Source of the DNA: Candidatus Obscuribacterales bacterium
GTDB lineage: Bacteria; Cyanobacteriota; Vampirovibrionia; Obscuribacterales; Obscuribacteraceae
Direction of reading: 5' to 3'
DNA length: 64,000 bases
NCBI GenBank assembly: GCA_019746975.1
Contig: JAIERK010000020.1
Span: 1-64,000, forward strand
The position numbers and the translations under genes were made by a program. Shown here piece after piece: positions 1 through 40,381 of this stretch. Within the stretch, counting starts at the first letter, position 1. Each line of letters starts with the position of its first letter. The notes under the pieces were generated by a model. That model searched no databases. It had not been told where the DNA came from and saw only the letters and a program-made list of their open reading frames with translations.

Positions 1-74
<74 letters not shown>

Positions 75-17230: not shown

Positions 17231-17405
17231 GGCTTATCCTCCATTGAATCAGTGATTTATATCAGATCAGCCTGAAAAAGGGAGCCAAACTCCGGATTTT
17301 ATTAACGCTTGCACATAGCTTTGAGTGTGACAGGTTGCAGTCTTGAACTTGCCGCAGCAAACTGTGGCAAAATTCATAGTGTGCGTTTAGGAGCACAAAT
17401 CACCT

Positions 17406-18619: not shown

Positions 18620-18907
18620 ATGATTGGCGGTTCACCTCAGTGTCGAAATTTTCTTCCCGAGATTACTATCGAAGTTGCTGGCGCGGCCGGTAGTGTCAAG
18701 CCCTCAATTACTGGCTGTGAGCGCGATTGGATTCGCAAGATAGAAGAGAGCTTTAACGACAGACGGAGAAGCGTGGAGTCTATTTCCCAGATTTGTGGTC
18801 AAGTTGATACCAACCTTTCGTCTGAAGCTGTCGAAGTCGATTTGGTTTCACGCTTTCTTTCGCAATCCCCCATGTCGCCCCTGGTGGAATTGTTCAATTA
18901 TTGCTGA
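18620..18907 (+). CDS. Possible small protein preceding the giant gene
   Basis: 95 codons ending 18 bases before the giant gene's ATG, on the same strand. The composition is ordinary for a soluble protein (WIRKIEESFNDRRRSVESI, VDLVSRFLSQSPMSPLVELF), with no signal peptide or known domain. There is no clear ribosome binding site before its ATG. It may be a real leader protein co-transcribed with the giant gene, or a chance frame. Confidence 0.4.
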   Translation: MIGGSPQCRNFLPEITIEVAGAAGSVKPSITGCERDWIRKIEESFNDRRRSVESISQICGQVDTNLSSEAVEVDLVSRFLSQSPMSPLVELFNYC

Positions 18908-18925
18908 CGCTGACCGAGGGGGGAC

Positions 18926-21900: not shown

Positions 21901-24900
21901 GCGAAATGGGACAATTCGGGCGTTGCTGACCGATGCCGATTCGCTGCGCCGACTGCCGTTAACACCTCAGGACTTGATGCGAGCTGACGTATTTTGCAAC
22001 CCCGAGACCGCCGACTATATTCGCGATTTCGGTTCCGTGAAGCGCATGCAAGAGACGCTGGAGCGGCTGAGCGTGCCTGCCAAAGCGAATACCGACTACG
22101 GTGATTTGAAGCGAGTTTTAACCGAGTTTAGAGACAAACTAGGCGGTCCCGGGACGTCGCAATTTGTCAACCTTTTTGGTGGCAGAGACAAGATTCGACG
22201 GTATCTTGTAGAACTCAATGATCCGCAGAAAGCAGATGCTGTTGTTGCTAGTCTAAAAGCGTCAGTCGGGTCGAAACCAATTACGGACATGTTGGCCCAT
22301 TTCGATCGCCTTCGCGATAACCCCGGTCTCCTCACTGATGCGAGCGTACATGCAACTATAGCTAAACAAGTATGGACTTCGTGTGCTGATTCGCTTGAAT
22401 CGATCGTTCGTCCTGTTGACACGAGCCAACCGCTGACTGAGCAAGTTGTCCAACTGCGCAGCGCTGCCGACAAATTTTTCCTGACCGCCACTACTAGTGG
22501 TGATCCGCAGCTTAAAGGCGCAGCAGCCTGGGTGAGTGCATTCAGCGGTCTAACACAGCTCAGTATGACCAATCTCGGTTTTGTCAGTGCAAGCGATCGT
22601 ATCGACTTTGCCAAGTCCGGACTGACAGAGCTATTGCGAACTGCGAATTATCCGGAAAACAAAGCGCTCATAGAGGCTCTCGGAGGCAAGGAAGCGCTCG
22701 AGCAGTTGATCAAAGATGTAGACAAATTAGGCTGGGGCACTGTCCAGCCTCGACTCAAGAGGATTCTGGATCTTCCTTTGGTCAGCGAGCGGTTGAGTGA
22801 GGGAGCATCCATACGTCAACTCCTGTTTCCAGGCAAGGCGTTTCGAGAACTTAAATTCACTAGGGAAGAACTGTTACGTTCGTCAATTCTTACTAATCCG
22901 GAGTCGATGAGCCGAGTTCGCGAGGCTTTGACTGTCGCTCGTTTTCTGAATGCACTCGAGGAAGGCGTCGATACAGCGGCGAGATGCCGTGAGCTGAGTA
23001 AATTGACGGACGAAGTTAGTCTGCTGCAGTACAGCCAGACCGGTGGCAAACAGCTGTTGCTCGCTTTAGGTGGCGCCAAGAAAATCGAAGCCCTCAAGGA
23101 GCAGCTTAAAGGCCTCGAGCAATGCAGAGAGTATCAAAACGACCCCAAGAACCGCGATCTTTACGAAAAACAAGCAATCCGGACCGACAAAGTCATCAAA
23201 GATTTGAAGACCTCTGCTACCAGAGATGAATTTAAAAATGCGTTTGCCAACCAAGTAAGCGGCATTCGTCCTTCGGAGGTCATAGAGTCTCCTTTTCAGA
23301 TACTCAGACCTTCACTCTCACCTGAAGACTTGGCTCGCGCTGTCGATCTTGTTAACACTAGACGCGCGGTTATTAATGGTGAGTTCAGTAAGCTCGAAGA
23401 GGTTTTTCTGATTCGTGGTACTACAGCCGATGCCCGAGAAGAATCGTTAAAGAAACTCGAGCAGATGGCGATTACTAAATTCGCAAAAGGCGGAGATGAC
23501 TTGCGTCTGCTCGGTGTTCCTGATCTACGAGCGGTACATCAACTGCTCAAGATTCAAGAAGCAAAAACTCCCGAGGGCAAGGCCAAGGCGATAGAAGACT
23601 TGATTGCGTTGGTCAGTCCAGCTAACCCGCTGGCTCAGAGATTCGTCTCTCAACTGGAGACTAAAAAATCAGCCGGCGAACCGGATTTGCTCAGTCTGAT
23701 GCGAATGCTCGAGCGCGGCTCAGCGGAAGAAAGGATTGCCGCACTCGAAATTTTGCGCCTCAGGATGCCATCCGCTGAGACCGAGAGCGATGTCTTGAGA
23801 ACACAGGCTGTCATGCGCGATCTTCTGCAGACTGAGAAGCCGACGGTTGAACAGCTCGACAAGGTCCGGAAGCGACTCGAAGATGAAGTGAGTGCCCGCA
23901 ACGTCAGCGCAGTCGAGTGGTTGGAGTGGGCTGATGCCAATAGGCACGTCCTGCGACTGTCCGCTAACGGGGGTGGTCCATCCACACAAGCTGATCGTGT
24001 CGATGCTGTAAAAGCTCTTAGTGCGTTAGCGAAAGAGGGCAACCCTCATGCACAACAAGCTCTATATGTGGTTCTAGCGAGCACTACTGATGGTGGCAAG
24101 CCGGCCGTTCAAACAGATGATGGATTCGCGCACAACCATCCGCTAGCTTTCAATTTCAAGCGACCACTATTCCCAGACATGAGCCATCTCAAGGGCGGAT
24201 TGGACGAACGCCTCGATCTGGCAAGACTAGCGCTGGACGGTATCGAGGTCGGACGGCGATTGCGCCATGAAATGACGTCGGAGCAGGCGCGTGTTCTGGC
24301 TCTTGCACTAGGTAGTTTCGGTGCGATGAACAACAGGGACCTGGCGCAGCGTGCCGGCGAAATCTTGGATTTAGCCTGGCGTAATTCTGATAATGCTCCT
24401 CGTGTGATGGATGGAGTGTTGCGAGCATTCATGGACAAGAGACCTGGTGCCTTCGATCGCCGAACTATCGCGGATTTCTTGATCAAGCAAGCCGATCAAG
24501 CAGCCTTCGCCGCGCGATTCGGTACCATCATTCAGGATGCCGGTCTTGGCGACAAAGATTCGCTCTATGTTCTAACCGGAGTGCTGGCGAGGAGCCGAAG
24601 CTGTCACCCAGATGTCCTGGCACTGGCCACTAAGGCTGCCACTAGATTTGGTGACAGAGCGGAGCTGCGCCAGGATTTCTTGAAAATTATGCTCGAGTAC
24701 AGCAGAAACAATACCGATTTCGGAATTTTGCTTCCTACGATGGGCGAGGTTGCTGCGAAGGAGGCTGGTACGCGCACTCTGGAGAGTAATCTGTCGCCCC
24801 TGGTCAAAGATGTTCGTACTGAGATTGCTCGGCAGCTCAAGCAAACGTTCGATTACGCACACAAGGAAGGACCGGTCCCTCGTCAAGTCTATCAGAGCGC

Positions 24901-27900
24901 GCTGAAAGGCCTGCTCAACATGTGCAATCACCTCCGACCGCAGGATGTAGATCTGCTCACTCGGGAGATTACTCCTGAGCTTGCCGAGGCCTTGAAGTCG
25001 ATTAGGTCTCCTAAGGGAATGGCGGAAATCGCCGATCTCTTCGTACAAAAAATGTTCGCCGTGCTCAATGATCCCGCAAGACAAAAGGAATGGATTTCCG
25101 CACTCGAGTCTCTAGGTCACCTGGGTCCGTGTTTGCAAGTCAACGAGAATGCGAATCACGTTCGAGACATCGTTCGGTTCATGAATATTAGAGGCGCCGG
25201 CAGTCGTGATGCCCAGTTGGCCGCCGGCAGAACTCTGTTATTGATCACCGCCAATGGTGCTACTCCGCAAGTCAGGGAGGAGGCGGCCAAAGTATTTGCT
25301 GAATGCGGTTGGGCCAAGGAGCTCGGGGCTGACGTATCGAAGGCATTGGTCGAATACGCACAGGGCAAAGATGTCTCCAAAGAAATGGTCGGCAAGATTT
25401 CAGAGCTCGTGTATGGCTTGAATATCAAGCCTCCAATTGCACATCTGTTGCGCATGTTGCAAGTAACCGATGTGCCGCAATCTCAGATCGATAAGGCAAT
25501 CGAGAAGTTGGGCAAAGGCGATCGAGCTCTTGGTGACGATCGATTCCGGCAGCTGCTTGCGCAAGTCCAATCCTACAACAGTCTTCCTAAAGCTCTTCAA
25601 TATTTGATTAAGTCCGGTGGCACCGATGTCTCCACGATAACAGCTTCCGATCTGATGACTGGCACGATGAATAAGCCGGAGGAGATAACGTCGACCAAGA
25701 TCAAGGAGATGTTGGGTCAGCTTGAGAAGGATGGCTCGTTGACAGGGAACTATGATCTTTTTAACGAGCAGACAGTCAATCAACGATTGAAAGCCCTTAC
25801 CGACTCCATGCTGAAGACGGTGGGAGATCGAACCGGACTGTCTCCCGACGAGGCGCATCGCCGGTTGATTGCGTTACGCACGAGCGCCGCTGTACGGGCT
25901 AGCGCTGGACTGGATGATCTCGCGGTTCAAAACGTAAGTGCTAATCGTAAAGCGACGATGGACGACCTGTGCGCGACAACCAAGAAAGGGCACGATACAT
26001 CGTATTGGTGGTATGCGGCTGCCGTTGTTGGCTATCCGATCGCCAGACAGATAAATCAGGGCAAAGTCAAAGAAAAGCAAGATGGTCTTATTACTGAACT
26101 TCGCAATCTCGACGCAGAGACGTCCGCCTTGGTAGGCGACATGCGTCGACTGAATGCGTTGGTGCAATCGGTAGACCTTGCTCGCGGCGTTGGTACTCAC
26201 TTCATGTTGACCGCCAACGCTGATCGAGCTGCGGCCGATGTTTTGATTCTCGACATGGCGACGGAACACAATCCGTCTACTCTTGCGGCGTTCGCGCCGC
26301 TAACATATAACGCACTGGTAGGCACCGGCACTCAAGCTTGGGAGCGCGGAGCGTGGGGGCGCCTGTACAATAACGGATTGACCTCGAGCCCTGTTTTTCC
26401 TACATATTCATACGGAATGCCCCAGGTCCTTGGCGAAGTGAAGCGCACTTTTGGCTTGCCCCTGTGGACAGATAGATCTTATATCGGCACTAATTATGAC
26501 TTCAATTCACTAAGAGCCGGGCAGCAAAGGCTAGTCATTAATGATGCTCTTCGCGCGATTAACACCCATCCCTCCATAGCTCGAAGCACGTTTGCGGCAT
26601 CAGAGATAAGTAAATATTGGGGCGAAGTTCAGGTTTTAGCTCAGGTCGGTATCGCGGGTGATACTAGAAGTGAGAAGATGGTCGACCATGTTCGCGGATT
26701 GATTAGTCGTGAGATGCAAGGTCCGGCGCGCGATTTGGCTATGGAAATCATACGTGAGCCAGATTTTGACAAGCTTGGTCCGCTCGTGGATCGTTTGAAA
26801 CAAATGAATCAAGATGGCGATCCTGTTGCGCGCTTTTTTATGGAGCGCCTGCAGAACCAGAACTTTTTCGCGATCTGGGAAAAGGCAAAGTTGACAGGAG
26901 ATGCCGCGGACAGAGAAAAGGCAATCAAAGAATTGCGCATTGGTGTTGGCATCATTCCAATGGAGGGATTGCAACCCGCGATTGAGAAAATCCAGTTGGA
27001 GTTGCCGAAACTGAAGGAGACATGCGAAGAGCTAAAGCAGGTAAGGGATGCCTGCCAGGATTCCACTGCCAGAGCGATTCTGGACGACAAGGTCAAGCAA
27101 CTCGAAAAGATCATTCAGACGTTCGACCCCCAGGGTGAACCTATGAAGCAGTTCAGAGAAATGATTCGTCTCCTCAATACGGATAGCTTTGGTGAAACAG
27201 ACTTTGGGACGTGGCTTCGTGATAAGGTCATACCTACGCTGGCAGTAATTGGCTATGCTGCATTTGTCGCTGTCTCGACATTCGGAGCTGGCACACCACT
27301 GGCGATTGCGGGCATGGTTATGATTGCTGGGGGTGGCATTCTAATCAGAGAAGGATACGCTGAACTCTCGTATCAACTAGATTGGAATGGCACCGGAGGC
27401 TCTCAAGCTGGCGATGCCTATAGGCGATATCAGAATGAAAAGGGACTACGTGAGTCGGGCTACATGGTCTACAACGCCAGGACGGGTCAGCTCGTCCCTG
27501 GACCGACTTGGGATAAGGTAGTTGAAACCTACGGCAAACAGTTCGCTACCGATATGGTACTCCAGTTGGTGCTACTCGGATACGGACATGTTCTGGGCAA
27601 AGGTCTTTCGTGGATTACCGGTGCAACCAATGCGGCCGAGCAGCAGGCCGCTAAGGCCGGCATGGTCCACATCCTCAAGCAATGTGAAACCTCGAGCAAA
27701 GGATTGCATGCTGCCATGACCGGACTTCCCAAAGCCGAATGGCCACTGGTATATCGCTGGCTCACCGAATGCGGTCATCAAGGCGGATTTGGTATCGGAT
27801 CACATGCCACACAAGATGCGATTCAGAAGGATGCTGATAAGCATAACTTTTATTCTGAGCTCACCGCTGCAGTCCTTGTTCTTACAGTATTCACCGCAGG

Positions 27901-30900
27901 AAGATCAGGATATAGAAACATAAAAGACTTCGGCAGCATTATGCCGCGTTTTAGCGGTCGAGACAACCTCGAGATACCTGTCGACAAAGTTGCGTTCATG
28001 AAAGAGTTCGCTGGCCGAATCGAAAAAAGTAACCTGAAAGATGTCGTGAAATTTGAAGAGTTGCCTAACGGAAATGTGCGGGCAACTCTTCACGGCAAGT
28101 CGATCACACTCAATTTTGTTTCTCCGGATGCCGCCGTCAGTGGTGCCACAAGACCAACATTCGAAGGTGCAACTGGCAGGCCCGCAGGAGACGGTAGCAA
28201 GTTGCCGCGGGATTTAGTTGAAGGAAAGTTGATTGAAGTAGACGGTGTGTGTCGCAAGCAGGTAGAAGACGCTCGCGTCGAAATAGAGCAGTCTATAGGC
28301 AAGGCGAATTTACCTGATGCGGTCGCAGGCAAACTTCGAGAGCTTGTCGGAGAGCGTCCACGTTCTGATGCTAATCCTCAGATAATGACGGAGTACGCGC
28401 GGAGATTGGCGCTGGTCCATGATATCGTCAATATGACCCCAGAGCTTCGTCAGCACTTTGTCGATCCAGCGTTGAAGAAGGACGCCTCTCCTAGCGAGCT
28501 CAGAAGACTCGCTGATACGGCACGACTTACCTCTGATCTGATCGCGAGCGGTGTTCCATGGGAGGTCGTCAACAAGTATCTGCCGGAACTCTTAGCCGAG
28601 GTTCAGCCGTTCATCGATATGTTGCCGCCTGCTATCAGGAAAGCATTCATAGACCCTGTCATAATGCGTGGTTTGAATCCAAAAGAATTCCATGCTGCTT
28701 TTGCTGAAGCTGTCGAACTGGCGCGACTTTCTCGACCGGATCAGATTCGTGATATAGCTATCAAATTAGAAACAGCGACAGGCGATCGAGCTCAGCAGTT
28801 GACGCAACTACTGATGGAAACAGCGCGTCAGATAGGTACGTCACCTGCCTATGTGGAGGCCATAAAGCTTGCTCATGAAAAACGCACCGCGGATCAGAAC
28901 ACCATGGTGGAAGCGGTCGAGCGAGTCAAGTCTGCTCTCAAAATTCCAGAGGAAGTATGGAACACTCAAGTAAAACCAGCTCTCACGAAGCCGGACATTT
29001 CGATTGAGACTTTCAACAAGGTTGTGGGCGGCCTGCGAAAACCAGTTGTAGAAGAGGTGGTAAAGGCTCCGGAAATATTTGATCCGCCCAGACCGGAAAA
29101 TTTCGGTGATCTGAAACCATTCAAGGTCAAGACGGACGTGCTGTCGGACAAGGTGGCTTCTGTCAAAAAAGTTCAGGAAGCGGCCGAGCAAGCTGAGGCG
29201 GCTGCAGGGGAAATGGCCCTTCGGGAAGGTGAATTCAATCTCCTGCTCCAGCCTGAGATTCAACGATTACAATTCGAGTTTCCGGATCTCATTTTCGGCG
29301 ATTGCCACACGATTGCCATGGCACGACTGGCTGTCGGTAGTTCTGAGGCAAGGCTTCAGAAAGCACACGATCAGCTACTGCAGGCCAAGGCTCGGGTGCA
29401 AGGGGCAGATGCTCAGCTCTCAGCGGAGTTGACCCGCTTCACAGAGAGCTTGGCCGGCACGATGAATGACTTCAACACTGCGCAGAAAGGACAGACCGTT
29501 CGGCTTGCGGTGAAGTACAGCGCTGATCCCCAGGCCGTTGCCGGGTATCACTCCAAAACTGGCGAGCTGATCTTGACACCAGATATTCTTAAACTTCCTC
29601 CTGAGCAATTCGGTGCATTCATGGCTCGGGAGATGAGCGCAGCCAGGACTGACTTCGAGCTTGCCTTTCAGCTCGCCTTTAGTCACCTACCGCCTGCAAC
29701 GCAGAAAGATCTGCAGAAGATTGACACTGACAAACTGCAAGCTGACTTTAAAGCACGGACCGGCAGAGAGTTGAACAACCGCACGCTTAGTGATGCCATT
29801 AATGCGGCCCGGAGCGGGAAAATAAAGCCTGACGGTGCGCTCGTGCCTCAGTTGGAAGCATCGGCGAAATCGACGAAGGTTGCTGACTACGCCAAACATG
29901 ACCTCCTGGCGAACAGGGTCTCTGCCGCCCACCTCGAGGTTCAACAAGGCAAGGTCAACCAGATTCTTGATCGGCTCTCAAGAGACGCGGCATATGCGCG
30001 CGATGTCTTCGGCGAGCCGCTGCCCACTGAGGTGCGTGCACTGGTCGAACAGCTGGGCCGTAGTGAATCAGTGGATGTTGTAACCGCCAAGAAGGTGTTA
30101 ACCGAAGCGCTCAATGCGAACCTGGCCAAGATCAATGCACGTATGAAGTCGCTGTTTGAAGGGATGACGTCTCGTGAAAAGCTAGCGATTGCTGAAGGAC
30201 AGGCGGGCGGCAACAATGTAAAAGTGGCCACTGATTCGCGAGCCAAACTCCAGAAGGAGTTGAGAGAAGAGTTCGCCGGCAACGAACCCTGGAAGGTGCG
30301 CGCCCGCGAATTGTTAGAAGCGACAAGAAATATGAGCGAGCGCGAGGCCGATTTCGTCCTCAACTTGCTTCGGTTACGTGCTTTGAAGGAATCCAAGAAC
30401 GATCAGTACAAGAAGGAGACGACTCCTGATCTGGATCGCTATCTCGAGACTCTGGACCTCATACTCGCAGGCGGACTCACGATGCCTACGATCGCAGCGG
30501 TCGCGGTGCCAGGCAAGACGCGCCAGAATATGGAACTCGTTCGCGATTTGACGGCGCTGCTCAAGACGGTTGGACGAGACTCTAACAAAGCCCAGAAGGA
30601 AGCGATTCTCGGGCAATGCATCAAGGATTTGATTCCAATTCAGCCTGTAATAGTGATGAATAAACCCGAGCTTGCTGAGAGAGCGCTGCAAGTTCGTTAT
30701 CAGTTGAATGCTACATTGAACGGGCGCGGCATTGAATTCAAGGGACTAACTAAAGAGCAGCTATCGAAAATGAGAAACGGGTTGGACGAAACCCTGAGCT
30801 ACAATCTTGGAAAGAATGGTAAGGGCGCTGAACAGGCTACAAGTTCTTTGACTAAGTTCATGGATCGCGTCAACGAATCGATCCAAGCTATCGAGGCGGT

Positions 30901-32497
30901 CAGACAGCTCGCCGCAGAAGGTAAGGTTGATCGAGCCAATGCTCTGGCGGAAGCTTATGCTTGTGCCGAACTGTTTCCAAACGCGGCTTTCCCTTTTAAA
31001 ACTTTGACACAAGCTGCTCTGAATCCGGATGTGCCGCTCAACGTACTTCGGTTCGTCTCCGCACAGTATAAAGCGGCCACCGAAGGCTTCGAAGGGCTTT
31101 ACAAGCAACATAACCTTGGCGGAGATTCAAACAATAGTCTATCGGTTTTGTATGCCATGGCCCGTTGCTTACCCGGCTATGAGACGTGGATCTACATACC
31201 GACAGGAAAGCAATCGACTGCCGATCACGGAAACATTGATGGTATCTTCCTCGATACCATGACAGGTCAAGTCAGGCCGATCGACTTTTTTGCTCTTCAA
31301 AAGGAAAACAAGAAAGAACTGCAAGGCAAGGATTTCTGGGCGAAGGACGACAAGAACATTGGCGATGGTCCTGCAATAGTCACGAGCACGGATTGCATGG
31401 TGGCAGCTCAGAAGTACATTATCGACTTTATGAAATCAACTGAGGCGATGGCAACAGCAATGGGCCCCAAGCTGGAGCCAGGTGCGACTTGGAGAGGGCG
31501 GGATCATCTTGGACAACCGTTTGAGCGCTCTAACGATAAGACATTCCCAGTGGCAGGCTCCACTGGTTTTACTCCTGAATTCGTTAGGAAAGTTGGCTTC
31601 CTTCCTTTCAAGCCTGGCAGAAACCCTGATGTTTGTGAAGTCACTCCAAAGGATGTGGCAGCAGAGCTCAAGGTCTGTCAGGACTACTACAAGAAGCTGT
31701 GTGACTATATGTTGGACGTTCATGCCCGCGATGGTGCCGTACCAGCACATGTCGTTAATCTTGCTATGGGCGTTCAGAACCTGATGAGCATGCTCAAAAT
31801 GGCAGACATCGCATATGGTGCCTTGACACTGCGGCTGATCGATCCCGTGTCTCCTACAGCGCCTAAGGCGCAAGCGAATCCGGATGGCAGTGCGACCGTT
31901 GTGTTCAATTCGGTTTTGAATACTTCGTCTAGAATCAAAGACTTTCAGGGCAACATTCTCGTTGACCAGGGACAAGGGTTCATTCCTGCTTTGAAGTTGT
32001 ACCCGGACGGTCGTATTACTGCGGTTGCAGTAGCTAAGGACAGTGGCACACTTCTAGATGCCATAAGAATGAAATTGGATCACTTCTCAACCGCTTGTCT
32101 CGAATCGCCCACTCGTGCTAACGGTGAAGCACTGGCGAGAATTAGGAACGACCTCCTGCTCGTACAGAGGGAAATTCAGAGCGGGAAAGCGGACTTTACA
32201 AAACCTCCGCTCGATAAATATGTGCCTGCTGGATTCGAAGTGCGGCCGGACGGTAAGATGATGACCAAGGCAAGCAAAAAAGAAAACCCCATGGGAACTC
32301 TTCCAGAGTTATTAGAAGTATCTATCGATCGACTGAATGCTAGCTGCGTCCAGAGTCCTACCGCTGCAAATCTCGAGGCTCTCGCTCGTCTTAAATCGGA
32401 ACTCGCCTTCATCAAAGGCGAATTGGCAGCCAACCGCAAACTCGATTATTCCAAGCCTCCGCTGGCTGATCTTGTGAAACGATTGGGCGGAAAATAG
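18926..32497 (+). CDS. Giant 4,523-residue helical-repeat protein, unknown function
   Basis: The ATG is well supported by GAGGGGGG just upstream. Residues 1-240 form a beta-rich N-terminal domain. A Pro/Glu/Thr linker (about 260-285) leads into more than 2,000 residues of HEAT/ARM-like helical repeats. Within these, a module of about 60-90 residues recurs: GG(R/K)(D/E)xL near 957, 1083, 1251 and 1380, with a downstream DLxRxxxxxNPE block near 1017 and 1314 and a diverged copy near 1468. A hydrophobic patch at about 2770-2815 could be two membrane helices or a buried core; weaker patches lie near 2355 and 2980. Coiled coil occurs around 3420-3500. The C terminus carries two tandem copies of an 83-residue unit. 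There is no signal peptide, and no adenylation, ketosynthase or protease signature. The role is unknown; a scaffold or surface/contact function is only a guess. Confidence 0.9.
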   Translation: MIEDFADILPSKDLVRSNRDDVTRLCLTDLVSFTDRLQKQIEPDSGTALPSEIGSDAGMLVESSDMRLRVESLDGKLMFLIYPSEEAALARKEIASIGYTYKSNGSVISETRVLSGGNGTTPKFTTETTIDKSKNTLTVTSEFNGKTSIATFADNGLPTGLVLLSAASGAKLQFIFENGKIKKVLHSNDKDGSVEELKGEKFDNAVNKCLEAMQIIARDNGFNLRVGTVTDTGSLDSSNFGDGNSGPESYFVSFDDPYLGGEPEKKPTDTPEKPVAEKTPETTADKLRVATEKLAAAEKSGDAIARQDALVAIAKLESTSPEARKLLLDYQGQPRDVTKAGRVEYARLLANEEGYKLFWESEEYPFRKEMFMAALDVVNANRTKDGLNAQDAGFCVKSARFASIHAKDDPNFASMFVDVLSKEMDGKGRTAVMTGIFNNANALTINAVREIYLRGVDEPLFAEQLERVEERLRGADYRDAAHQLLIDLTTGVGDAKVIPGKPSRAEKAASLLNSEAEFFIFSSTPERVKAMVDDLYKLYKLRNKPGDKNGEHDKTLVTLARVAANLPAADIKPEIFQAIAQGYKDASGDRNSPAFKDARAAMLAVAKYWTRDDALTYLKDLTPDTIHDLKSVIDVIPPAVKRHLATALSERYEKALGKSGDTAELKLIGDAMRVLKDSATPMQLVKVFGKDSVEIKDSTRVKNPFPDINTFKTLWEKNIPDWGFPEDMKDSDEAVKKGEVSEHELGSALAFRFLSGKDPDGLRKLRDIVFDNSSPTTADIWCRTEFVVAIAKIESGHQSGDKEIKMSGLVDLMALRRSNACITGVKPLIDRYIKGEQEKGRITEQQVVQSVQLGQLRFMAGFNDATSAVVDIVNPNSNAEEIKRALDRFLSASRDADLPIVTASHLHDIAVARYFDRAVAALDSPEGLKNPKQIQVLRDALESIKKGEFSIERTLHEAFGGRDKLQQLIDRLDPAKPDDAAAVRDIVIQTLKRNGTIRALLTDADSLRRLPLTPQDLMRADVFCNPETADYIRDFGSVKRMQETLERLSVPAKANTDYGDLKRVLTEFRDKLGGPGTSQFVNLFGGRDKIRRYLVELNDPQKADAVVASLKASVGSKPITDMLAHFDRLRDNPGLLTDASVHATIAKQVWTSCADSLESIVRPVDTSQPLTEQVVQLRSAADKFFLTATTSGDPQLKGAAAWVSAFSGLTQLSMTNLGFVSASDRIDFAKSGLTELLRTANYPENKALIEALGGKEALEQLIKDVDKLGWGTVQPRLKRILDLPLVSERLSEGASIRQLLFPGKAFRELKFTREELLRSSILTNPESMSRVREALTVARFLNALEEGVDTAARCRELSKLTDEVSLLQYSQTGGKQLLLALGGAKKIEALKEQLKGLEQCREYQNDPKNRDLYEKQAIRTDKVIKDLKTSATRDEFKNAFANQVSGIRPSEVIESPFQILRPSLSPEDLARAVDLVNTRRAVINGEFSKLEEVFLIRGTTADAREESLKKLEQMAITKFAKGGDDLRLLGVPDLRAVHQLLKIQEAKTPEGKAKAIEDLIALVSPANPLAQRFVSQLETKKSAGEPDLLSLMRMLERGSAEERIAALEILRLRMPSAETESDVLRTQAVMRDLLQTEKPTVEQLDKVRKRLEDEVSARNVSAVEWLEWADANRHVLRLSANGGGPSTQADRVDAVKALSALAKEGNPHAQQALYVVLASTTDGGKPAVQTDDGFAHNHPLAFNFKRPLFPDMSHLKGGLDERLDLARLALDGIEVGRRLRHEMTSEQARVLALALGSFGAMNNRDLAQRAGEILDLAWRNSDNAPRVMDGVLRAFMDKRPGAFDRRTIADFLIKQADQAAFAARFGTIIQDAGLGDKDSLYVLTGVLARSRSCHPDVLALATKAATRFGDRAELRQDFLKIMLEYSRNNTDFGILLPTMGEVAAKEAGTRTLESNLSPLVKDVRTEIARQLKQTFDYAHKEGPVPRQVYQSALKGLLNMCNHLRPQDVDLLTREITPELAEALKSIRSPKGMAEIADLFVQKMFAVLNDPARQKEWISALESLGHLGPCLQVNENANHVRDIVRFMNIRGAGSRDAQLAAGRTLLLITANGATPQVREEAAKVFAECGWAKELGADVSKALVEYAQGKDVSKEMVGKISELVYGLNIKPPIAHLLRMLQVTDVPQSQIDKAIEKLGKGDRALGDDRFRQLLAQVQSYNSLPKALQYLIKSGGTDVSTITASDLMTGTMNKPEEITSTKIKEMLGQLEKDGSLTGNYDLFNEQTVNQRLKALTDSMLKTVGDRTGLSPDEAHRRLIALRTSAAVRASAGLDDLAVQNVSANRKATMDDLCATTKKGHDTSYWWYAAAVVGYPIARQINQGKVKEKQDGLITELRNLDAETSALVGDMRRLNALVQSVDLARGVGTHFMLTANADRAAADVLILDMATEHNPSTLAAFAPLTYNALVGTGTQAWERGAWGRLYNNGLTSSPVFPTYSYGMPQVLGEVKRTFGLPLWTDRSYIGTNYDFNSLRAGQQRLVINDALRAINTHPSIARSTFAASEISKYWGEVQVLAQVGIAGDTRSEKMVDHVRGLISREMQGPARDLAMEIIREPDFDKLGPLVDRLKQMNQDGDPVARFFMERLQNQNFFAIWEKAKLTGDAADREKAIKELRIGVGIIPMEGLQPAIEKIQLELPKLKETCEELKQVRDACQDSTARAILDDKVKQLEKIIQTFDPQGEPMKQFREMIRLLNTDSFGETDFGTWLRDKVIPTLAVIGYAAFVAVSTFGAGTPLAIAGMVMIAGGGILIREGYAELSYQLDWNGTGGSQAGDAYRRYQNEKGLRESGYMVYNARTGQLVPGPTWDKVVETYGKQFATDMVLQLVLLGYGHVLGKGLSWITGATNAAEQQAAKAGMVHILKQCETSSKGLHAAMTGLPKAEWPLVYRWLTECGHQGGFGIGSHATQDAIQKDADKHNFYSELTAAVLVLTVFTAGRSGYRNIKDFGSIMPRFSGRDNLEIPVDKVAFMKEFAGRIEKSNLKDVVKFEELPNGNVRATLHGKSITLNFVSPDAAVSGATRPTFEGATGRPAGDGSKLPRDLVEGKLIEVDGVCRKQVEDARVEIEQSIGKANLPDAVAGKLRELVGERPRSDANPQIMTEYARRLALVHDIVNMTPELRQHFVDPALKKDASPSELRRLADTARLTSDLIASGVPWEVVNKYLPELLAEVQPFIDMLPPAIRKAFIDPVIMRGLNPKEFHAAFAEAVELARLSRPDQIRDIAIKLETATGDRAQQLTQLLMETARQIGTSPAYVEAIKLAHEKRTADQNTMVEAVERVKSALKIPEEVWNTQVKPALTKPDISIETFNKVVGGLRKPVVEEVVKAPEIFDPPRPENFGDLKPFKVKTDVLSDKVASVKKVQEAAEQAEAAAGEMALREGEFNLLLQPEIQRLQFEFPDLIFGDCHTIAMARLAVGSSEARLQKAHDQLLQAKARVQGADAQLSAELTRFTESLAGTMNDFNTAQKGQTVRLAVKYSADPQAVAGYHSKTGELILTPDILKLPPEQFGAFMAREMSAARTDFELAFQLAFSHLPPATQKDLQKIDTDKLQADFKARTGRELNNRTLSDAINAARSGKIKPDGALVPQLEASAKSTKVADYAKHDLLANRVSAAHLEVQQGKVNQILDRLSRDAAYARDVFGEPLPTEVRALVEQLGRSESVDVVTAKKVLTEALNANLAKINARMKSLFEGMTSREKLAIAEGQAGGNNVKVATDSRAKLQKELREEFAGNEPWKVRARELLEATRNMSEREADFVLNLLRLRALKESKNDQYKKETTPDLDRYLETLDLILAGGLTMPTIAAVAVPGKTRQNMELVRDLTALLKTVGRDSNKAQKEAILGQCIKDLIPIQPVIVMNKPELAERALQVRYQLNATLNGRGIEFKGLTKEQLSKMRNGLDETLSYNLGKNGKGAEQATSSLTKFMDRVNESIQAIEAVRQLAAEGKVDRANALAEAYACAELFPNAAFPFKTLTQAALNPDVPLNVLRFVSAQYKAATEGFEGLYKQHNLGGDSNNSLSVLYAMARCLPGYETWIYIPTGKQSTADHGNIDGIFLDTMTGQVRPIDFFALQKENKKELQGKDFWAKDDKNIGDGPAIVTSTDCMVAAQKYIIDFMKSTEAMATAMGPKLEPGATWRGRDHLGQPFERSNDKTFPVAGSTGFTPEFVRKVGFLPFKPGRNPDVCEVTPKDVAAELKVCQDYYKKLCDYMLDVHARDGAVPAHVVNLAMGVQNLMSMLKMADIAYGALTLRLIDPVSPTAPKAQANPDGSATVVFNSVLNTSSRIKDFQGNILVDQGQGFIPALKLYPDGRITAVAVAKDSGTLLDAIRMKLDHFSTACLESPTRANGEALARIRNDLLLVQREIQSGKADFTKPPLDKYVPAGFEVRPDGKMMTKASKKENPMGTLPELLEVSIDRLNASCVQSPTAANLEALARLKSELAFIKGELAANRKLDYSKPPLADLVKRLGGK
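32057..32491 (+). repeat. Coding tandem repeat at the C terminus of the giant protein
   Basis: Two units about 249 bases apart encode closely similar segments: SPTRANGEALARIRNDLLLV then FTKPPLDKYV, and SPTAANLEALARLKSELAFI then YSKPPLADLV. The cysteine, the SPT, the ANxEALAR block and the KPPL motif are kept in both, pointing to duplication of an 83-residue end domain. Confidence 0.85.
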
Positions 32498-32723
32498 CAT
32501 GTAACCTAACTAGGCTTTGCGAGGGAGAGTAGAACGATTCGATCTATTTGTTTTCGAGTCAGACTTGTTCTGAGGACTTAGACCAAATTCGGTCTAAGTT
32601 TACTTGCAGAATTAGTCTTTTCTTTTCAACGGATCGAAGTCAAATTCAATCGAAGTTTTTGTAGCGACTTGCGGAACGAGCCCGTTATTCTGCAGAGGCT
32701 CAAAACCGAATTCAGCCTAAATT

Positions 32724-33931
32724 ATGGCACAATACAGATATTCATACTCGTTATCGGCTCGGCGCTGTGGTTCTGCCTAGATCCGACTAAGTAAGCTGTG
32801 CAAAAAGGAACTTCAACGAAATCCATACGATCAAGAGATTAGTAACTACCTGAAGTCGAGTCAAGCAAAGGGGATCAATTTCGCTGCGCTTGAACAATGC
32901 ATCGAAGGAGCGAAATACAAATCGATCGGTCTTTTTCCTGACTTTGGATCCGGCGACCAAGGACTCAAGCAGTCCGTTGCAGAATTCGATCGAGTGCTGA
33001 AAGCATTTCCTTGGTGTACCGAAGCTCATCTTGCTAAAGCGTGGTGCTTCTCCTCTCTTGAGTTTCCAAACAAGAATGCAGCGGAGACGAGCTTGAAAGA
33101 AGCTATTGCTACTGACGATTCAAGTTGCGAAGCAAAGATAAAGTATGCCGAATTTCTGAATGGCGAACATCGATATAAAGAGGCTGAACATCAGCTAGCT
33201 CTTGCACAAAAGCTTAAGGATAGCTGCGAGATACATGTAGTCAGATCTGAGATCTTCAAATCAGAGAACAAATACGATCTGTCCGTCGCTGAGATATCGA
33301 AAGCGATCTCAATGAGACCGAACGATGCAAATCTATTCGAGAAAAGATCTGATTTATTTGCGAGTCAAAGTAAGTACAAAGAGTCCATGCGTGATCTGGA
33401 TGTTGCGATTCAAATGAGTGAAGGATACACAAATAAAATCGTGGATCTAACTAGTTCGTACTGAAAATTGAACGGTAATTGCGTGGATCCACTCCTTTGG
33501 CAATTATTCGTCAAGAGCGGAAGCCTACCTGATCAAGCTCTCAAAGATATCAATAAGGCTCTCTTATTAGAAAATAACTATAGTGATTATGATGTGAAGT
33601 CCAGAATTCTAATTGTAAAACGTAGTTATAGAGCTGCTTTAGCAGAGTTGGATAGATCCTGGAGTGCCTATACGAAAGAGTTTGATGATCCAGGAGATCG
33701 AGATGAATTCGATGGTTATGAGCGCGCCGCAGCTCTGTTTGCGCTTGAGCAGGATGTTGCAGCTAACTCTCTTTAAGCAAAGCTCACAAAAAAACTATCT
33801 CCGAGCGTGCGCTTTCTGATCAGGGGTTCCGTGCTGGCCGACGCTGGACGCCGAGAAGACTCTCTCCTCGCATTTCACAAGCCAAAAAATTGGGTGAGTT
33901 TGAAAATCCACTCGAGTCATTGCATTTCTAG
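32724..33931 (+). pseudogene. Decayed TPR protein gene
   Basis: One reading frame carries continuous TPR-like sequence but is broken several times. An ATG at 32724 meets TAG at 32778. The frame then stays open without any ATG, GTG or TTG until 32994. TGA at 33462 and TAA at 33774 interrupt clear TPR sequence (ALKDINKALLLEN after the first stop; RGSVLADAGRREDSLLAF after the second). A one-base slip at about 33881 is needed to continue into AKKLGEFENPLESLHF and a TAG at 33929. Upstream, a signal-anchor-like TIQIFILVIGSALWF is legible in another frame, ending near 32784. The intact ancestor was probably an exported or membrane-anchored TPR protein of about 400 residues. Confidence 0.85.
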
Positions 33932-34421
33932 TGTGATAACTATTGGAGAAACTGGATTTGACTGCGCTATCTTGAAGGCTGTCTATGAGCTGGTTCTGCT
34001 CGATCTGGTGCTGCTCGATCTGGTTGCTACTGTCTGACTTCGAAAATGAGATTCTTGTGAACTTTTCCGAATGATAGTCGAAATTGCAAATTTCTGTTGA
34101 CTTCCGGCGAAGGCGATCATAGAATGCCACCATATCGAAACATTTTTGCCGTTCCTGTGTCGTGCTTCTCCCGCTCAATGCAGAAGATGCACTTCGTCTT
34201 TGAATCGATTACTAGCAGATCGCAAGAAAATCCTATGCTTGACCGCTTCCGCTTTGACGGAAGTATGTTTCTTTGCAAGAGGAGGTTTTGAATAGCAAAT
34301 TTTGGTCAAGCCTTAGCCGTTTTGTCACTTTAGACACCATGTTGAACTTTGTTTCAACAAACAAGATCGCATTTTACTAAACATAAGTGTGTGGGCAATC
34401 CCCGGTCATTTTGACTCGCGG
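33932..34421. other. Gene-free stretch before the heptad-protein leader
   Basis: There is no gene that I can support; short frames here lack ribosome binding sites. It contains two tandem copies of a 15-base unit (CTGCTCGATCTGGTG, 33996-34025) and a small hairpin, GTTGAA/TTCAAC with a six-base loop, at 34341-34358. Confidence 0.55.
33996..34025. repeat. 15-bp tandem duplication
   Basis: CTGCTCGATCTGGTG is followed immediately by CTGCTCGATCTGGTT, one mismatch in fifteen. It lies in non-coding DNA just past the decayed TPR gene and is consistent with ongoing slippage or relaxed constraint. Confidence 0.8.
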
Positions 34422-34600
34422 GACGTACGTCGCCAATCGAGGAAGAGAGACCTGTAAAGGTTTTGCTTCGGGAAGTTGTGCGTGGTCTCACTGCGTAAGC
34501 AGCGAGCGTAGGTTCGCGATGTTCAGATACGTTGGTTGAGAACTAACTCGGGGTGTCTCGCTGCACACCTGACCGGGCGTCTACGCCTAGGAGGTACGTC
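34422..34600 (+). promoter_or_regulatory. Structured leader of the glycine-heptad gene
   Basis: Three inverted repeats precede the start codon. They are a 10-base palindrome GACGTACGTC (34422-34431), a hairpin with a GNRA-type GTAA loop (34487-34506, CTGC/GCAG plus CTC/GAG around an A-C mismatch), and GGCG-TCTA-CGCC (34576-34587) ending just before the AGGAGG at 34589-34594. The last hairpin could control access of ribosomes. I cannot match this to a known riboswitch. Confidence 0.45.
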
Positions 34601-37600
34601 ATGACCGTGCAAAATTTTGAACAAGGTAATTCTTCTCAAGACAACAATCAAATTCAGAGACTGGACTTCAACAGTTCTGACAAGAGTTTCAACAATGAGT
34701 TTCATGCAATGAAACAGAGGAGCGATGACAAAGACTCGTCTCTAAAAGACTTTGGTCCTCAGATCCAGCTGTTCGATAACATAACTAATTTACCAACGGA
34801 TAAAACGACGAGCTCTGAGCGCAATCCGGAAAGTGCGATGCATCGTCAGCTCGAACCATGGCGACTCGACGATCGCTTTGGTGCTCGGCTGGAGCGTCTC
34901 GGCCATCACAACATCAAACAGGGCGATCGAAAAATCAAACTGGGCAATCTGAAAAATGCGGAAGGTGACGCCATAGTAATGGACAGCAATGAAAAATTGA
35001 AAACCGCAGACGGCAAAGTAGACTCTGCTGTCAAGAAAATTCAGCAAGGTAATGAGGTGGTGCGAACGTCTGTAAATGGCATTCAAGAAGGACAGAAAAA
35101 GATTACTGATGCGGACGCGAAAATCGCAAGCGGTCAACACAAAGTCACCACAGGCGATGCGAAGATTATTGGTGGACAGACCAAAGTCGTTCAAGGTGAC
35201 GGCAAAATAGAAAGCGGTGGGAAGAAAGTGCAACAAGGCGACGCTAAAGTTGCTGGCGGCGAAGAGAAGGTGGCGGCTGCTTCCAAGCTGATTGCCCAGG
35301 GCGAGGTGAAAGTTGCTCGTGGTGATAAGAAAATAGAAAGTGGCAACGAGAAAGTAAAGGCCGGAGACACGAAAATTGCTAGCGGCGAAGATAAGGTCAA
35401 ACGCGGCGACTCAAAAATTACTATTGGCAATGAAAACATCAAGCGTGGCGAAGCCAAGATTAAAGGCGGTCGAGATAAGTTAGCCAGTGGCGATCAGCAC
35501 GTCAAAAACGGTACTGATAAAGTCGAGCGTGGTGATAAAAAAGTCGCAAGTGGCCAGGCCAAGGTCAAGCAAGGCGATACCATGATTGCCGGTGGTGAAC
35601 AAAAGGCTGCTCGCGGCGACGCGATTATCAAAAGCGGCGATGATAAAATAAATCGTGGCGACAAGATGATAAAGAGCGGCGAAGACAAAGTCACTCGCGG
35701 CGATCAGAAGATCGCCTCCGGCAAAGACAAAGAGCTGCGCGGTAACGAGAAAGTAAAGAGTGGTGAGGCGAAAATTGCTACCGGCGAGCAGAGAGTGAAG
35801 AGCGGTGAAACCAAGATTGTAAAAGGAGATGAGAAGATCCACTCTGGACAGAACAAAGTCCAACTGGGCGATGACAAAATCGCAAGCGGTGATCGCAAAG
35901 TGGCGCTGGGCGATTCGAAGATTGCCTCGGGAGACAGCAAGATCGCTCGAGGAAATCAGAAAATCGTATCTGGTCATGACAAGATTAACCGTGGCGATCA
36001 GAAGATTGCATCTGGCGAAGCCAAGATCAAACAAGGCGATCAAAGAATCGCTGCCGGCGCCGACAAGAACAAACGTGGCGATGAAAAAATTGCCAGCGGA
36101 AACGACAAGATAGCCCGTGGTGATACCAAAATTGCTGCCGGCGAACAAAAGGTCCGAGCCGGTGATCTGAAGGTTGCCGCCGGAACAGAAAAAATTAAGC
36201 AAGGTGATCTCCGCATCAAATCTGGAGAAGGGAAAGTTGCTTCCGGCGATAAGAAGATTGCCGACGGGACGGCCATCGAGCAGACCGGATTGAACAACTT
36301 GAAAGAGGCTCAAGAGAAAAACAAAAAAGCTGACGGCCTGGAACTAGATTCCAAACGCAATACGACCGAAGGTCAGGGAAAGATCGCTCAGGGTGAAAGC
36401 AATATCAAGAGCGGCGCAGAGAAGGTCAAGAATGGTAATGAGCAGCTCGAAGCCGGCGAGAAAAAAGAGAAGGACGCCGAGCAGAAGAGAAAACAAGCCG
36501 AGAAGCTCAAGGAGCAGGCCAAGCTCGAAGGCGCTGGTGGCGATGAGCTTATCAAGAACGGTGAGCGCCTCAAGGAATTGGCCGGGTGCAATGAGGAGCT
36601 GCAAAAACAGGCCGAAAAGGAGATCAAGCTCGGTCAAGAGAAAAAGCAGCTGGAGCAAGAATTGAAGCAAAAAGCTGAGGAAAGATCTAAAGCCGCCGAT
36701 GTAGATGCTAAAAAAGCGCTTGAGCTTAAACAAGCAGGTACCAAGACGATCGCTGAAGGTAAGAGTCAGACTGCTCTAGGGCAGAAGCAAGTAACGGATG
36801 GGAAAGCTCAAGTAAATCTGGGTACCCAACAGCTGGCCGATTCGCGCAACCTACGCCAGGAAGCTACCAAACAAGCGACTCTTGGCGAATGTCAGCTCAC
36901 GGAAGGTCGGGCACTCAAGCAGGCTGGATCCATCGAAAAGGCTAAAGGGCAGACCGAAGTCGCCGATGGACAAAAGGTTAAGACGGATGGACAAAAAGAG
37001 GTCGCTGATGGAACCCGTGTCCGTACCGAGGGCAACCAAGAAATCGCCTCGGGGCGTGCTCTCAAAGCCGAAGGACAAAAGGAGGTCAGGGACGGGCGCA
37101 ACCTGAAGGAGGAGGCGAAATGCGATACAGCCGAAGGACAGAAGCTGAAAGAACAAGGTAAGCAGGAGGTCCTCGATGGCAAGAAGCTGAAACAAGTGGG
37201 CACATGTGAAGTGGCTGACGGTGAGCAGCTCAAGAAGGATGGTGAAGAAGAGAAAAAACAAGGTACGCAGCTAAAAAACGAGGGCGTCAATGAAGCTAAA
37301 GAAGGGCGTACTTTGAAAGAGAGCGGACGCAAGGAGATTGCCGACGGAGATGCGCTAAAACAACAAGGTCGTCAGGAACTCGTCGAAGGGGAGAACTTGA
37401 AGACGCAAGGAAAGTGCGAGATTGATGAAGGGCAGACCTTGAAGAAGCAGGGAAAACAAGACGGTATCGAAGGCGAACAGCTGAAGAAGGACGGTTTTGC
37501 CGAAATTGCAGATGGAAAAGCTCTTAAGAAAACCGGTCAGGCAGAGGTTGCCAGCGGTACTCCTATCAAAAAGGAAGGCCTTGCCGAGGTCGCTAGAGGG

Positions 37601-38413
37601 AAGGCTCAGAAAGCCGATGGACTCGCCGAGATAAAGCAGGGTGAAGACTTGCGGAAGCAGGGTAAGGACGAAATTGCCCTCGGTAAAAAACAGAAGGAAG
37701 AAGGAGGGCGCGATATTGCAGACGGTGGCAAGCTCAAGAAAACCGGACAGCAAGAAGTTGCTGACGGGACCAACCTGAAAAAGGATGGTCGTGCAGAGAT
37801 TGCCGATGGACAGTCGGTCAAGAAGTGTGGTCTTGAGGAGATCAAAGAAGGCAACACCCTCAAGAAGGATGGTCAAGCCGAAGTCACCAGAGGCGATGCG
37901 CTGAAGCTTCAGGGTAAAGATGAGATAGCGCAGGGAAAGGTGCTTCGGCAGGACGGGCAGAAGGAGAGCGCCGATGGTCAGAGCCTTAAAAAAGAAGGTG
38001 CAACGGAGATCGCGGATGGCGGTGCTCTGAAGCAAGAGGGGCTGAGTGAAATCGCCGGTGGTACCAATCTCAAAGCCGAGGGCGAGAAGCAGATAGGTGA
38101 GAACATGATCTCCAAAGTCGCAGGTGAGCACCTGGTTACGGAAGGGCAAGCCGAGCTAACCTCAGCCGAAAAAGAGCGCAACGATGCCCTGGCCAGACGG
38201 AAAGAAGGTGAAGACCTGAAGCAACTCGGGAAAGAATTGGTCGATACAGGTACTGCGCAGAAAGCGCTCGGAACGCTGCAAGTACGTCTTGGACGACAAC
38301 TCCAACGAGGATATTGTCACTTGCCTCCACCTTCCAGATGTTTTGAACCAGGGAAGCAAGGTCGTTACATGCCGGCCAATCCTCATCCTCTCCTGATTCG
38401 TCAGGCTGCATAA
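34601..38413 (+). CDS. Giant xxx(I/V/L)xxG glycine-heptad protein
   Basis: 1,270 residues from ATG 34601, which has a perfect AGGAGG seven bases upstream; an in-frame ATG at 34553 has none. Residues about 103-560 are some 65 consecutive heptads of the form K(I/V)xxG(D/E/N)x, for example KIASGED-KVKRGDS. Residues 560-710 are a charged Lys/Glu coiled-coil-like stretch. Residues 710-1180 are about 33 units of 14 residues, each two heptads, such as LKKDGxAEIADGxx. This matches the xxxLxxG heptad pattern seen in YhgE/Pip-type and other repeat proteins, but here it fills nearly the whole chain, with no signal peptide or membrane helix. A long fibrous or filament-forming rod is the likeliest structure; the function is unknown. 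The last 45 residues leave the heptad pattern. Confidence 0.88.
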   Translation: MTVQNFEQGNSSQDNNQIQRLDFNSSDKSFNNEFHAMKQRSDDKDSSLKDFGPQIQLFDNITNLPTDKTTSSERNPESAMHRQLEPWRLDDRFGARLERLGHHNIKQGDRKIKLGNLKNAEGDAIVMDSNEKLKTADGKVDSAVKKIQQGNEVVRTSVNGIQEGQKKITDADAKIASGQHKVTTGDAKIIGGQTKVVQGDGKIESGGKKVQQGDAKVAGGEEKVAAASKLIAQGEVKVARGDKKIESGNEKVKAGDTKIASGEDKVKRGDSKITIGNENIKRGEAKIKGGRDKLASGDQHVKNGTDKVERGDKKVASGQAKVKQGDTMIAGGEQKAARGDAIIKSGDDKINRGDKMIKSGEDKVTRGDQKIASGKDKELRGNEKVKSGEAKIATGEQRVKSGETKIVKGDEKIHSGQNKVQLGDDKIASGDRKVALGDSKIASGDSKIARGNQKIVSGHDKINRGDQKIASGEAKIKQGDQRIAAGADKNKRGDEKIASGNDKIARGDTKIAAGEQKVRAGDLKVAAGTEKIKQGDLRIKSGEGKVASGDKKIADGTAIEQTGLNNLKEAQEKNKKADGLELDSKRNTTEGQGKIAQGESNIKSGAEKVKNGNEQLEAGEKKEKDAEQKRKQAEKLKEQAKLEGAGGDELIKNGERLKELAGCNEELQKQAEKEIKLGQEKKQLEQELKQKAEERSKAADVDAKKALELKQAGTKTIAEGKSQTALGQKQVTDGKAQVNLGTQQLADSRNLRQEATKQATLGECQLTEGRALKQAGSIEKAKGQTEVADGQKVKTDGQKEVADGTRVRTEGNQEIASGRALKAEGQKEVRDGRNLKEEAKCDTAEGQKLKEQGKQEVLDGKKLKQVGTCEVADGEQLKKDGEEEKKQGTQLKNEGVNEAKEGRTLKESGRKEIADGDALKQQGRQELVEGENLKTQGKCEIDEGQTLKKQGKQDGIEGEQLKKDGFAEIADGKALKKTGQAEVASGTPIKKEGLAEVARGKAQKADGLAEIKQGEDLRKQGKDEIALGKKQKEEGGRDIADGGKLKKTGQQEVADGTNLKKDGRAEIADGQSVKKCGLEEIKEGNTLKKDGQAEVTRGDALKLQGKDEIAQGKVLRQDGQKESADGQSLKKEGATEIADGGALKQEGLSEIAGGTNLKAEGEKQIGENMISKVAGEHLVTEGQAELTSAEKERNDALARRKEGEDLKQLGKELVDTGTAQKALGTLQVRLGRQLQRGYCHLPPPSRCFEPGKQGRYMPANPHPLLIRQAA

Positions 38414-38531
38414 CGTGCACCGAGAATGCGGCGAGCTTTAAATTAGCCGCCGCACGCTCGGTTGATACGATAGGACGCGGTCGAATGGAAGCCTGTTGCA
38501 CGAAAGATCAAAGAGTCAGAAGGGTAGAGTT

Positions 38532-39572
38532 ATGAATCAAAATTTAACGCACGCTAAAAGCGTTTGCCAGTTGTTCGATCTGGTGGTTGCCACCGTTTCT
38601 GGTCCTATGAATCAACGCTTGTCGGAGACCGGTCAAACTTCCGGAAGTCAGTTCATCGCTGTCGACCAGTTCGCGAGCGATATCTTACACATTGCCACGG
38701 CCGTCTACGCTACTGGTGGCATGACGTCGAGTCAATGTGCTTTTTTCTCCGAGTTATACGACCACGCCGCGCGAAGAGATGTTGCTACAAGGGTGGATGA
38801 GTTTCAATCCTGGTGCGCCGGTTTGGCAAACTCCAATCAGCTATATTGCGAGCCGCCGACAGCATCGCTCAATCTCCTCCGCGGATACGATGCTGTCAAT
38901 CGAACCATGATCGCCAGGATGTACAAAGAGCTCGTCATGAAAATTGTGACTGTTGTTTTAACCCAGGTAACCGCCCCTTGTTCCCGAGAAATAGCGCTCG
39001 TCCAGGATTTCGATAACTTTTGGACAGAGGTTGTGATGGCAACCAGGTCTCCGCAAAGATGCCTTCAGCCTGCGAGCATTGTGCTGATTTCAGAATTAAA
39101 CAAAGCTGTCGCTGAATTCGTGATTCCTGCGCGCGAAGTGATAAATTCTGTGGCTCAGCTATCACAGATAGAAGGATTAGGCGATACGGAAGGCTTTATC
39201 AGGAAGACGTTTACGAATTACTGTGCCCAAGCAGTGCTAGTTGATTCTGTAGTTGATGAGAGAGAGCTTGAGCTTTTTCACGATCTGGCTCCAACGCTAA
39301 TGTATTTCGGTTCGAACGGAAGTCTGGAAAGTCTCAGACAGATGTTTCAAGGGGCCTCGAAAAACATTATGCCGAATGAGGTTCCTCTACTGGTAAGTAT
39401 TCTCGATATCTTCGATAGCTCGATGAACACCAATTATGGTGGCAGTGCCAGATCCCTTTACGTGAAGCTGGCGAAGACTGCGTTTAGCGCCGATATGAAT
39501 GTGTGTCGGGAAGAGACACAATGGTTGGGCCAATTCCAGCAGACGCTATATCCGTTAGCGTCTGCTTGCTAA
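38532..39572 (+). CDS. Helical protein with TerB-like repeats
   Basis: About 346 residues, soluble and mostly helical. The ATG at 38532 is preferred for its AAGGG about eight bases upstream; a start at 38496 lacks one. Three segments resemble the TerB/DjlA helix-acidic-loop-helix pattern: AVYATGGMTSSQCAFFSEL (about 60), VLVDSVVDERELELFHDL (about 235) and AFSADMNVCREETQWLGQF (about 320). TerB-like domains are found in stress and tellurite-resistance proteins and may bind metal, but the assignment here is by eye only. It begins 118 bases after the glycine-heptad gene on the same strand and could share its transcript. Confidence 0.7.
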   Translation: MNQNLTHAKSVCQLFDLVVATVSGPMNQRLSETGQTSGSQFIAVDQFASDILHIATAVYATGGMTSSQCAFFSELYDHAARRDVATRVDEFQSWCAGLANSNQLYCEPPTASLNLLRGYDAVNRTMIARMYKELVMKIVTVVLTQVTAPCSREIALVQDFDNFWTEVVMATRSPQRCLQPASIVLISELNKAVAEFVIPAREVINSVAQLSQIEGLGDTEGFIRKTFTNYCAQAVLVDSVVDERELELFHDLAPTLMYFGSNGSLESLRQMFQGASKNIMPNEVPLLVSILDIFDSSMNTNYGGSARSLYVKLAKTAFSADMNVCREETQWLGQFQQTLYPLASAC

Positions 39573-40168
39573 AGCGTGTATAAATCTTGCCACTCTGCGG
39601 CTGACGATTTTTCAGGAGTTCGTAAGTCTTCGCGAGTTCGGAATTGACATCGTCGATCAACGGAGAATCAGGAAAGTTCTTTTTGAGAAAGCTCAAGCAT
39701 TCTTTTTTGTATTTTATAGCTGTTGTGATATCACCGTTCTGCACATATAGATTCGCCAAGCCTGCAACCACACCACGGACACGCACAACGGAACTGCCAG
39801 AGCTGCTGCAACGAAAACAACTTTGGTAAATCCGATGGCTTTGCGACTATCAGCAACAGCTGCATGCTGGATTGGTGTATCTGGTTTTGCTCGTTCCAAA
39901 CTTTGCTCGAGCGACTCTCCGTCGATGAACTCCATGCAGAGGAACGGCGATTCTTCAGTCAATCCTAAGTCATAGATTTTTGCTATGCCAGGGTGATTCA
40001 ATTTGCTCGCCAGGCGCGCTTCTTGTTGAAAGCGGATCAGGTCTCGGTCTTCTTTTGCGATCAGGAATTTCAAGGGACGGTAGTGTCCAAGTAGGAATCC
40101 TTCGCCTTGTAGACGGCACCTTTGCAGCCAGACCCCAATAGCTCGATGATTTGAAACCTATTTATCAA
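39484..40168 (-). pseudogene. Decayed Ser/Thr kinase-TPR gene
   Basis: Reading the minus strand from about 40168, the glycine loop (ELLGSGCKGAVYKAKD) is followed by a frame change near 40074. The reading then continues as LKFLIAKEDRDLIRFQQEA and MEFIDGESLEQSL. The kinase then breaks off: the HRD loop, DFG and the whole C lobe are missing. The reading jumps directly to a membrane helix (VVFVAAALAVPLCVSVVWL). A second frame change near 39780 leads into a TPR remnant (GLANLYVQNGDITTAIKYKK). Its end overlaps the 3' end of the plus-strand TerB-like gene. It cannot encode an active kinase. Confidence 0.88.
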
Positions 40169-40381
40169 TATAGAGTTCCTGGGGGCAATTTATTGCATTC
40201 GGCGAGGTCTCTTATCTCTTCGTTCATGCCTTCATTCGATACCCTGCATTCCAGCTTTATACCAACGAGACGAAAAGCCTTTCATTTTTATGATCAGCTG
40301 CCGATCTTATGATGTCAAATGCTCGCGTGCGAAAGACTGCTTTAGAGTGCCTGGCAAAGTATTGCGGAAAATGGTAGTTTG

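Follow-up and report, generated by a model that had tools for sequence, protein, structure and literature searches.

The open reading frame at positions 34601-38413 (+) of the window, by which we mean the whole 64,000-nucleotide stretch of DNA that was analysed, encodes a 1,270-amino-acid protein dominated by glycines spaced seven residues apart. This protein is probably a long alpha-helical rod, soluble and only weakly hydrophobic, which is specific to its lineage and serves as spacer, strut or fibre subunit. The first-pass annotation placed the gene correctly, as the frame opens with ATG 34601, runs without an internal stop to 38413 and is preceded at 34590-34595 by GGAGGT, a strong ribosome-binding site (Table 1). 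The leader 5′ of the gene is unique in the genome, and an Rfam search of the window found no structured RNA in this long 5′ region. The protein is markedly hydrophilic (GRAVY -1.09), consists of 12.9% glycine and contains eight cysteines. It had been described as having neither anchor nor export signal, and we likewise saw neither a signal peptide nor a membrane span or anchor; the highest 19-residue Kyte-Doolittle mean is 0.29. No convincing relative of the N-terminal tail (residues 1-93) was found, and PADLOC did not match the gene to any defence system.

Table 1. Positions of the features discussed (window coordinates, except where a locus is named)
Feature	Position	Strand	Basis
Protein of glycine heptads, 1,270 aa (P0001 without the first residue)	34601..38413	+	Open frame and translation
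Shine-Dalgarno sequence GGAGGT, 5 nt 5′ of ATG 34601	34590..34595	+	Read directly in the sequence
N-terminal tail, residues 1-93: hydrophilic, non-repetitive, signal peptide absent	34601..34879	+	
Array A (residues 94-590), units of 14 residues, DxKIASG xDKIxRG; Gly register unbroken at 234-563	34880..36370	+	Repeat analysis; helical in AlphaFold2 model
Middle helix (residues 591-705), with 46% of residues charged	36371..36715	+	AlphaFold2 model and composition
Array B (residues 706-1225), units of 14 residues, xxEIADG xxLKKxG; Gly register unbroken at 846-1161	36716..38275	+	Repeat analysis; helical in AlphaFold2 model
C-terminal tail, residues 1226-1270: contains Pro/Cys/Tyr, non-repetitive	38276..38410	+	
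358-aa gene downstream of the rod gene: stand-alone N-terminal domain of AAA+ ATPases, lacking the AAA part	38496..39572	+	
Species-variable segment, ~23.1 kb, containing the rod gene	17271..40370		Flanks directly adjacent in both congeners
P0005, open frame of 620 aa in another genome of the class	G072:C13, L056 5480-7327		

The periodicity is nearly exact. Among the 164 glycines of the protein, 113 gaps are of exactly seven residues, and glycine recurs at every seventh position without a break for 48 copies (residues 234-563) and again for 46 copies (residues 846-1161); in 2,000 shuffles of the same composition the longest such run was 6. We counted 62 glycines in register in array A and 70, or about 35 units of 14 residues, in array B, close to the earlier counts of about 65 heptads and about 33 units. 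The 14-residue unit, formerly assigned to the second array only, holds there and extends to the first. Identity is higher at lag 14 than at lag 7 both in array A (0.42 versus 0.30) and in array B (0.37 versus 0.23), so that a single 14-residue unit, with the consensus DxK(I)xSG xDK(I/V)xRG in array A and xxE(I/V)ADG xx(L)KKxG in array B, is the true repeat throughout. The hydrophobic register also needs correcting: it is constant in array A, where the residue falls at Gly+4 throughout and is Ile or Val in 87% of heptads, but in array B it alternates between Gly+3 (Leu) and Gly+4 (Ile/Val). Similarity between units does not decay with distance out to lag 98, and the arrays are therefore not a recent expansion.

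If the repeats are maintained, is it the protein or the DNA that is kept? Comparing unit with unit inside each array by Nei-Gojobori pN/pS, a repeat-against-repeat measure rather than one between species, we found a ratio of 0 at all four glycine columns, with zero amino-acid change between copies, although the third base of the glycine codons is highly variable (1.4-2.0 bits of a possible 2). Frozen glycines together with such variable silent sites indicate that the protein is kept, not a DNA repeat, as the first-pass annotation had argued. Ratios were 0.06-0.34 at the fixed Lys, Glu, Asp and Leu columns and at the first Ile column of array A, and mostly 0.7-1.0 at the free columns. The annotation had also proposed dN/dS at glycine versus other positions; between repeats, the selection that it inferred is borne out, with a ratio of about 0.6 at the other two Ile/Val columns. 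Judged from these comparisons, the protein is under purifying selection on its glycine and its hydrophobic/charged register.

The best evidence on the fold comes from charge. Once column composition had been removed, opposite charges showed covariation at a spacing of 3 (pooled z -3.6) and of 4 (pooled z -3.9), with a sum of z -5.2 (p about 2e-4). Each array taken singly is significant (A, p 0.006; B, p 2e-4), and spacings 2, 5-6 and 14 gave no such signal. The outcome was unchanged with stricter 28-residue columns. Confined as it is to i+3 and i+4, the signal is what salt bridges along an alpha-helix would give, and a stacked beta coil would not. Structure prediction, which had been suggested as a check, was carried out on each half with AlphaFold2 and gave long helices only, with no strands. 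These models have low confidence (mean pLDDT 60 and 62; pTM 0.19 and 0.21), were built from the single sequence with no alignment and come from a method that tends towards helix for charged low-complexity sequence. The helix conclusion thus rests mainly on the covariation, and the two together favor the rod proposed at the outset, as an alpha-helical, rod-like architecture. One hydrophobic residue per heptad plus glycine is poor content for a classical coiled coil, and a charge-hydropathy rule classes the whole chain as disordered.

A quite different fold is suggested by Pfam, in which PF21300 (LbR_Ice_bind, the grass antifreeze beta-roll) matches the protein at 98.5 bits. As this is far above the gathering cut-off of 30, automatic annotation would use the antifreeze name. 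An ice-binding or adhesive beta-roll would also be compatible with the 14-residue periodicity, a 14-residue coil being what such a fold would use, and a sequence search of the PDB weakly matches 3ult, a protein of rye-grass; the grass protein shares with ours the glycine heptads and the 14-residue unit. The defining ice-binding motif is NxVxG/NxVxxG (PMC5744647). In the 1,270 amino acids of our protein, however, NxVxG is absent and NxVxxG appears a single time; the charges co-vary as in a helix, and not at spacing 2 or 14, and the models, weak as their confidence is, lack strands. PF21300 also scores the glycine heptads of P0005 (36.9 bits), a protein of another genome of the class, and those of YhgE (22 bits), and so answers to glycine heptads in general. 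We therefore rejected the antifreeze beta-roll identity, which we consider extremely improbable. Because glycine heptads in general reach scores close to or beyond the cut-off of this model, it will mislabel such proteins as antifreeze beta-rolls.

What, then, are the relatives of the protein? No full-length relative was found among 40 related genomes, including two congeners. Profiles of the arrays found none among 289 genomes of the class, in two of which heptad arrays occur in other proteins, and, apart from those two, the array A profile found none among 386 genomes of the phylum. Phage, plasmid, viral and genome collections yielded repeat look-alikes only, or nothing, and a fixed-peptide lookup in genome and viral collections found no relatives. 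The repeat style has precedents. TIGR03057 (NCBIfam X-X-X-Leu-X-X-Gly), found in YhgE/Pip proteins such as WP_013623065.1 of Deinococcus proteolyticus, describes glycine heptads in similarly long arrays, with a hydrophobic residue four after (three before) each glycine. This Gly+4 residue is Leu in 63% of YhgE heptads versus Ile/Val in 87% of those of array A, and array B has a hydrophobic residue there in alternate heptads only. The rod protein also differs from YhgE in its Lys and Asp at fixed positions and in its 14-residue alternation, which is clear here and absent in YhgE. The TIGR03057 model has no match in the rod protein at E <= 1, whereas the same library gives 28 stretches in the YhgE protein P0003; TIGR03061 and TIGR03062, the YhgE/Pip N- and C-terminal membrane domains, are present in P0003 and absent in the rod protein. 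To judge from these comparisons, the earlier description of the rod as undescribed is right for the whole protein, which has no full-length relative in the collections searched, and wrong for the style of its repeat, which TIGR03057 and YhgE/Pip anticipate.

The most similar soluble protein is P0005, which shares K(I/V)xxG(N/D)x heptads, helical charge covariation and the lack of a visible signal; it differs in being half the size, in its weaker 14-residue alternation and in an extra C-terminal domain. The rod repeats match P0005 (E 4e-26) and YhgE (E 4e-28) in blastp, values that in such repeats cannot separate homology from convergence. The C-terminal domain of P0005 is common to its two downstream neighbors, so that three consecutive proteins at L056 4103-9990 (G072:C13), one of them with glycine heptads, share this domain (NGYLQAAKALLKQI...). 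Elsewhere in the class, giant proteins (L057 3880-9621 and L019) carry AGTAQVTAG-type uncharged glycine heptads near hydrophobic stretches.

Several other matches were considered and set aside. The YadA/Hep_Hag head repeats of trimeric autotransporters, which occur in the same family (G023, G013), resemble the rod protein in their 14-residue units and glycine heptads but, unlike it, are Ala/Ser/Asn-rich, uncharged and without a dominant Ile/Val at Gly+4. The tblastn matches in G023, G013 and G019 are Hep_Hag repeats of this kind in a different register, and the rod protein itself has no Pfam YadA match, signal or membrane span. A match in phage PhiR12_3 is a tandem 'ATSDQRP' DNA repeat, one in Borrelia anserina falls in a lipoprotein-like protein, on a short array of near-identical SEKVDAG units, and NCBIfam matches to SMC and PspA lie far below cut-off and are generic coiled-coil noise.

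The host very probably belongs to Candidatus Obscuribacterales, as the nearest named relative of a conserved gene of the window, at 80% identity, is in a genome of that order. The rod gene lies in a segment that varies between species. Window 17271-40370 is present here and absent at the same locus in both congeners examined, in which only ~100-130 bp, counted from one aligned end to the other, separate the TetR-HlyD-RND genes (window 40422 onward) from those up to 17270. Besides the rod gene, the segment contains an amidase, a 4,523-amino-acid protein and a 358-amino-acid protein, and no integrase or mobility genes were recognised among the genes scanned in it. The 358-amino-acid protein has a full-length paralog with the AAA domain at G000:C186 and relatives in G001 and G002. 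The 4,523-amino-acid open frame (window 18926-32497, +) has no Pfam match above cut-off and at most a weak partial match in the two congeners. Its C-terminal part has an 84% identical paralog in the same genome (G000:C137), and no second rod gene follows that paralog within 2.5 kb. At window 32994-33776, a TPR-like frame is interrupted by a stop near 33464 and seems to resume beyond it; this gene is likely decaying. The 18.5 perfect TAGT copies at window 1-74, where the contig starts (C241:1), are possibly an assembly-end artefact.

How might such a protein work? Each 14-residue unit would form about four helical turns, held by the i to i+3 and i+4 salt bridges to which the covariation points, with a stripe of Ile/Val/Leu and Gly running along one face of the helix. 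A glycine at every seventh position may let helices pack closely, on each other or on a partner. Two such rods, A and B, joined by the charged helix, would suit a structural role, as spacer, strut or fibre subunit, and not an enzymatic one. The cytosol is the most likely site, as signal, membrane span and anchor are absent, although export by an unrecognised route is conceivable.

Export is central to one rival account, in which the protein forms a stalk, exported or on the cell surface, in the manner of the YhgE/Pip/EsaA rods or those of the large cell-envelope proteins of Vampirovibrionia, and leaves the cell by an unrecognised secretion signal. YhgE/Pip ectodomains use the same heptad register, EsaA-type ectodomains are elongated and able to span the cell wall (PMC9600267), and the proteins of the related class that carry such heptads are multidomain. 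We think this unlikely, given that the rod protein has no signal peptide or membrane span, does not match the YhgE N- and C-terminal models and contains eight cysteines. We hold it equally unlikely that the protein is a stress protectant resembling hydrophilins or LEA proteins, disordered in water, partly helical when dried and shielding proteins in desiccation or osmotic stress. Hydrophilins are defined by a hydrophilicity index >1.0 and Gly >6% (PMC7448490), thresholds that the rod protein passes on both counts, and the charge-hydropathy rule does predict disorder. However, glycine at exactly every seventh position for 48 and 46 copies, with a fixed Ile/Val position, is unexpected of a disordered protectant, 1,270 amino acids is unusually large for one, and no LEA family matches in Pfam. 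It could also be argued that an orphan gene, inside a variable segment that also contains a decayed-looking TPR gene, is a selfish or neutral repeat expansion, open by chance and not a working protein. This is very improbable in light of the glycines that never change while their third bases do, the flat similarity of units to lag 98, which speaks against recent origin, and the strong ribosome-binding site.

It is possible, if doubtful, that the protein represents a type of cytosolic filament or strut, hitherto undescribed, of these non-photosynthetic relatives of cyanobacteria. Its helices would zip together along a seam of Ile and Gly with more than 90 repeats, and, with P0005 as a second example, it would be present in two orders of the class or more. 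The rod protein is in any case a clean natural test of strict glycine heptads without surrounding membrane domains. Apart from glycine, its repeats are held at one hydrophobic position and at one or two charged ones and evolve almost freely elsewhere, so that a small synthetic segment should suffice to learn if heptads of this type make helices, pairs or fibres.
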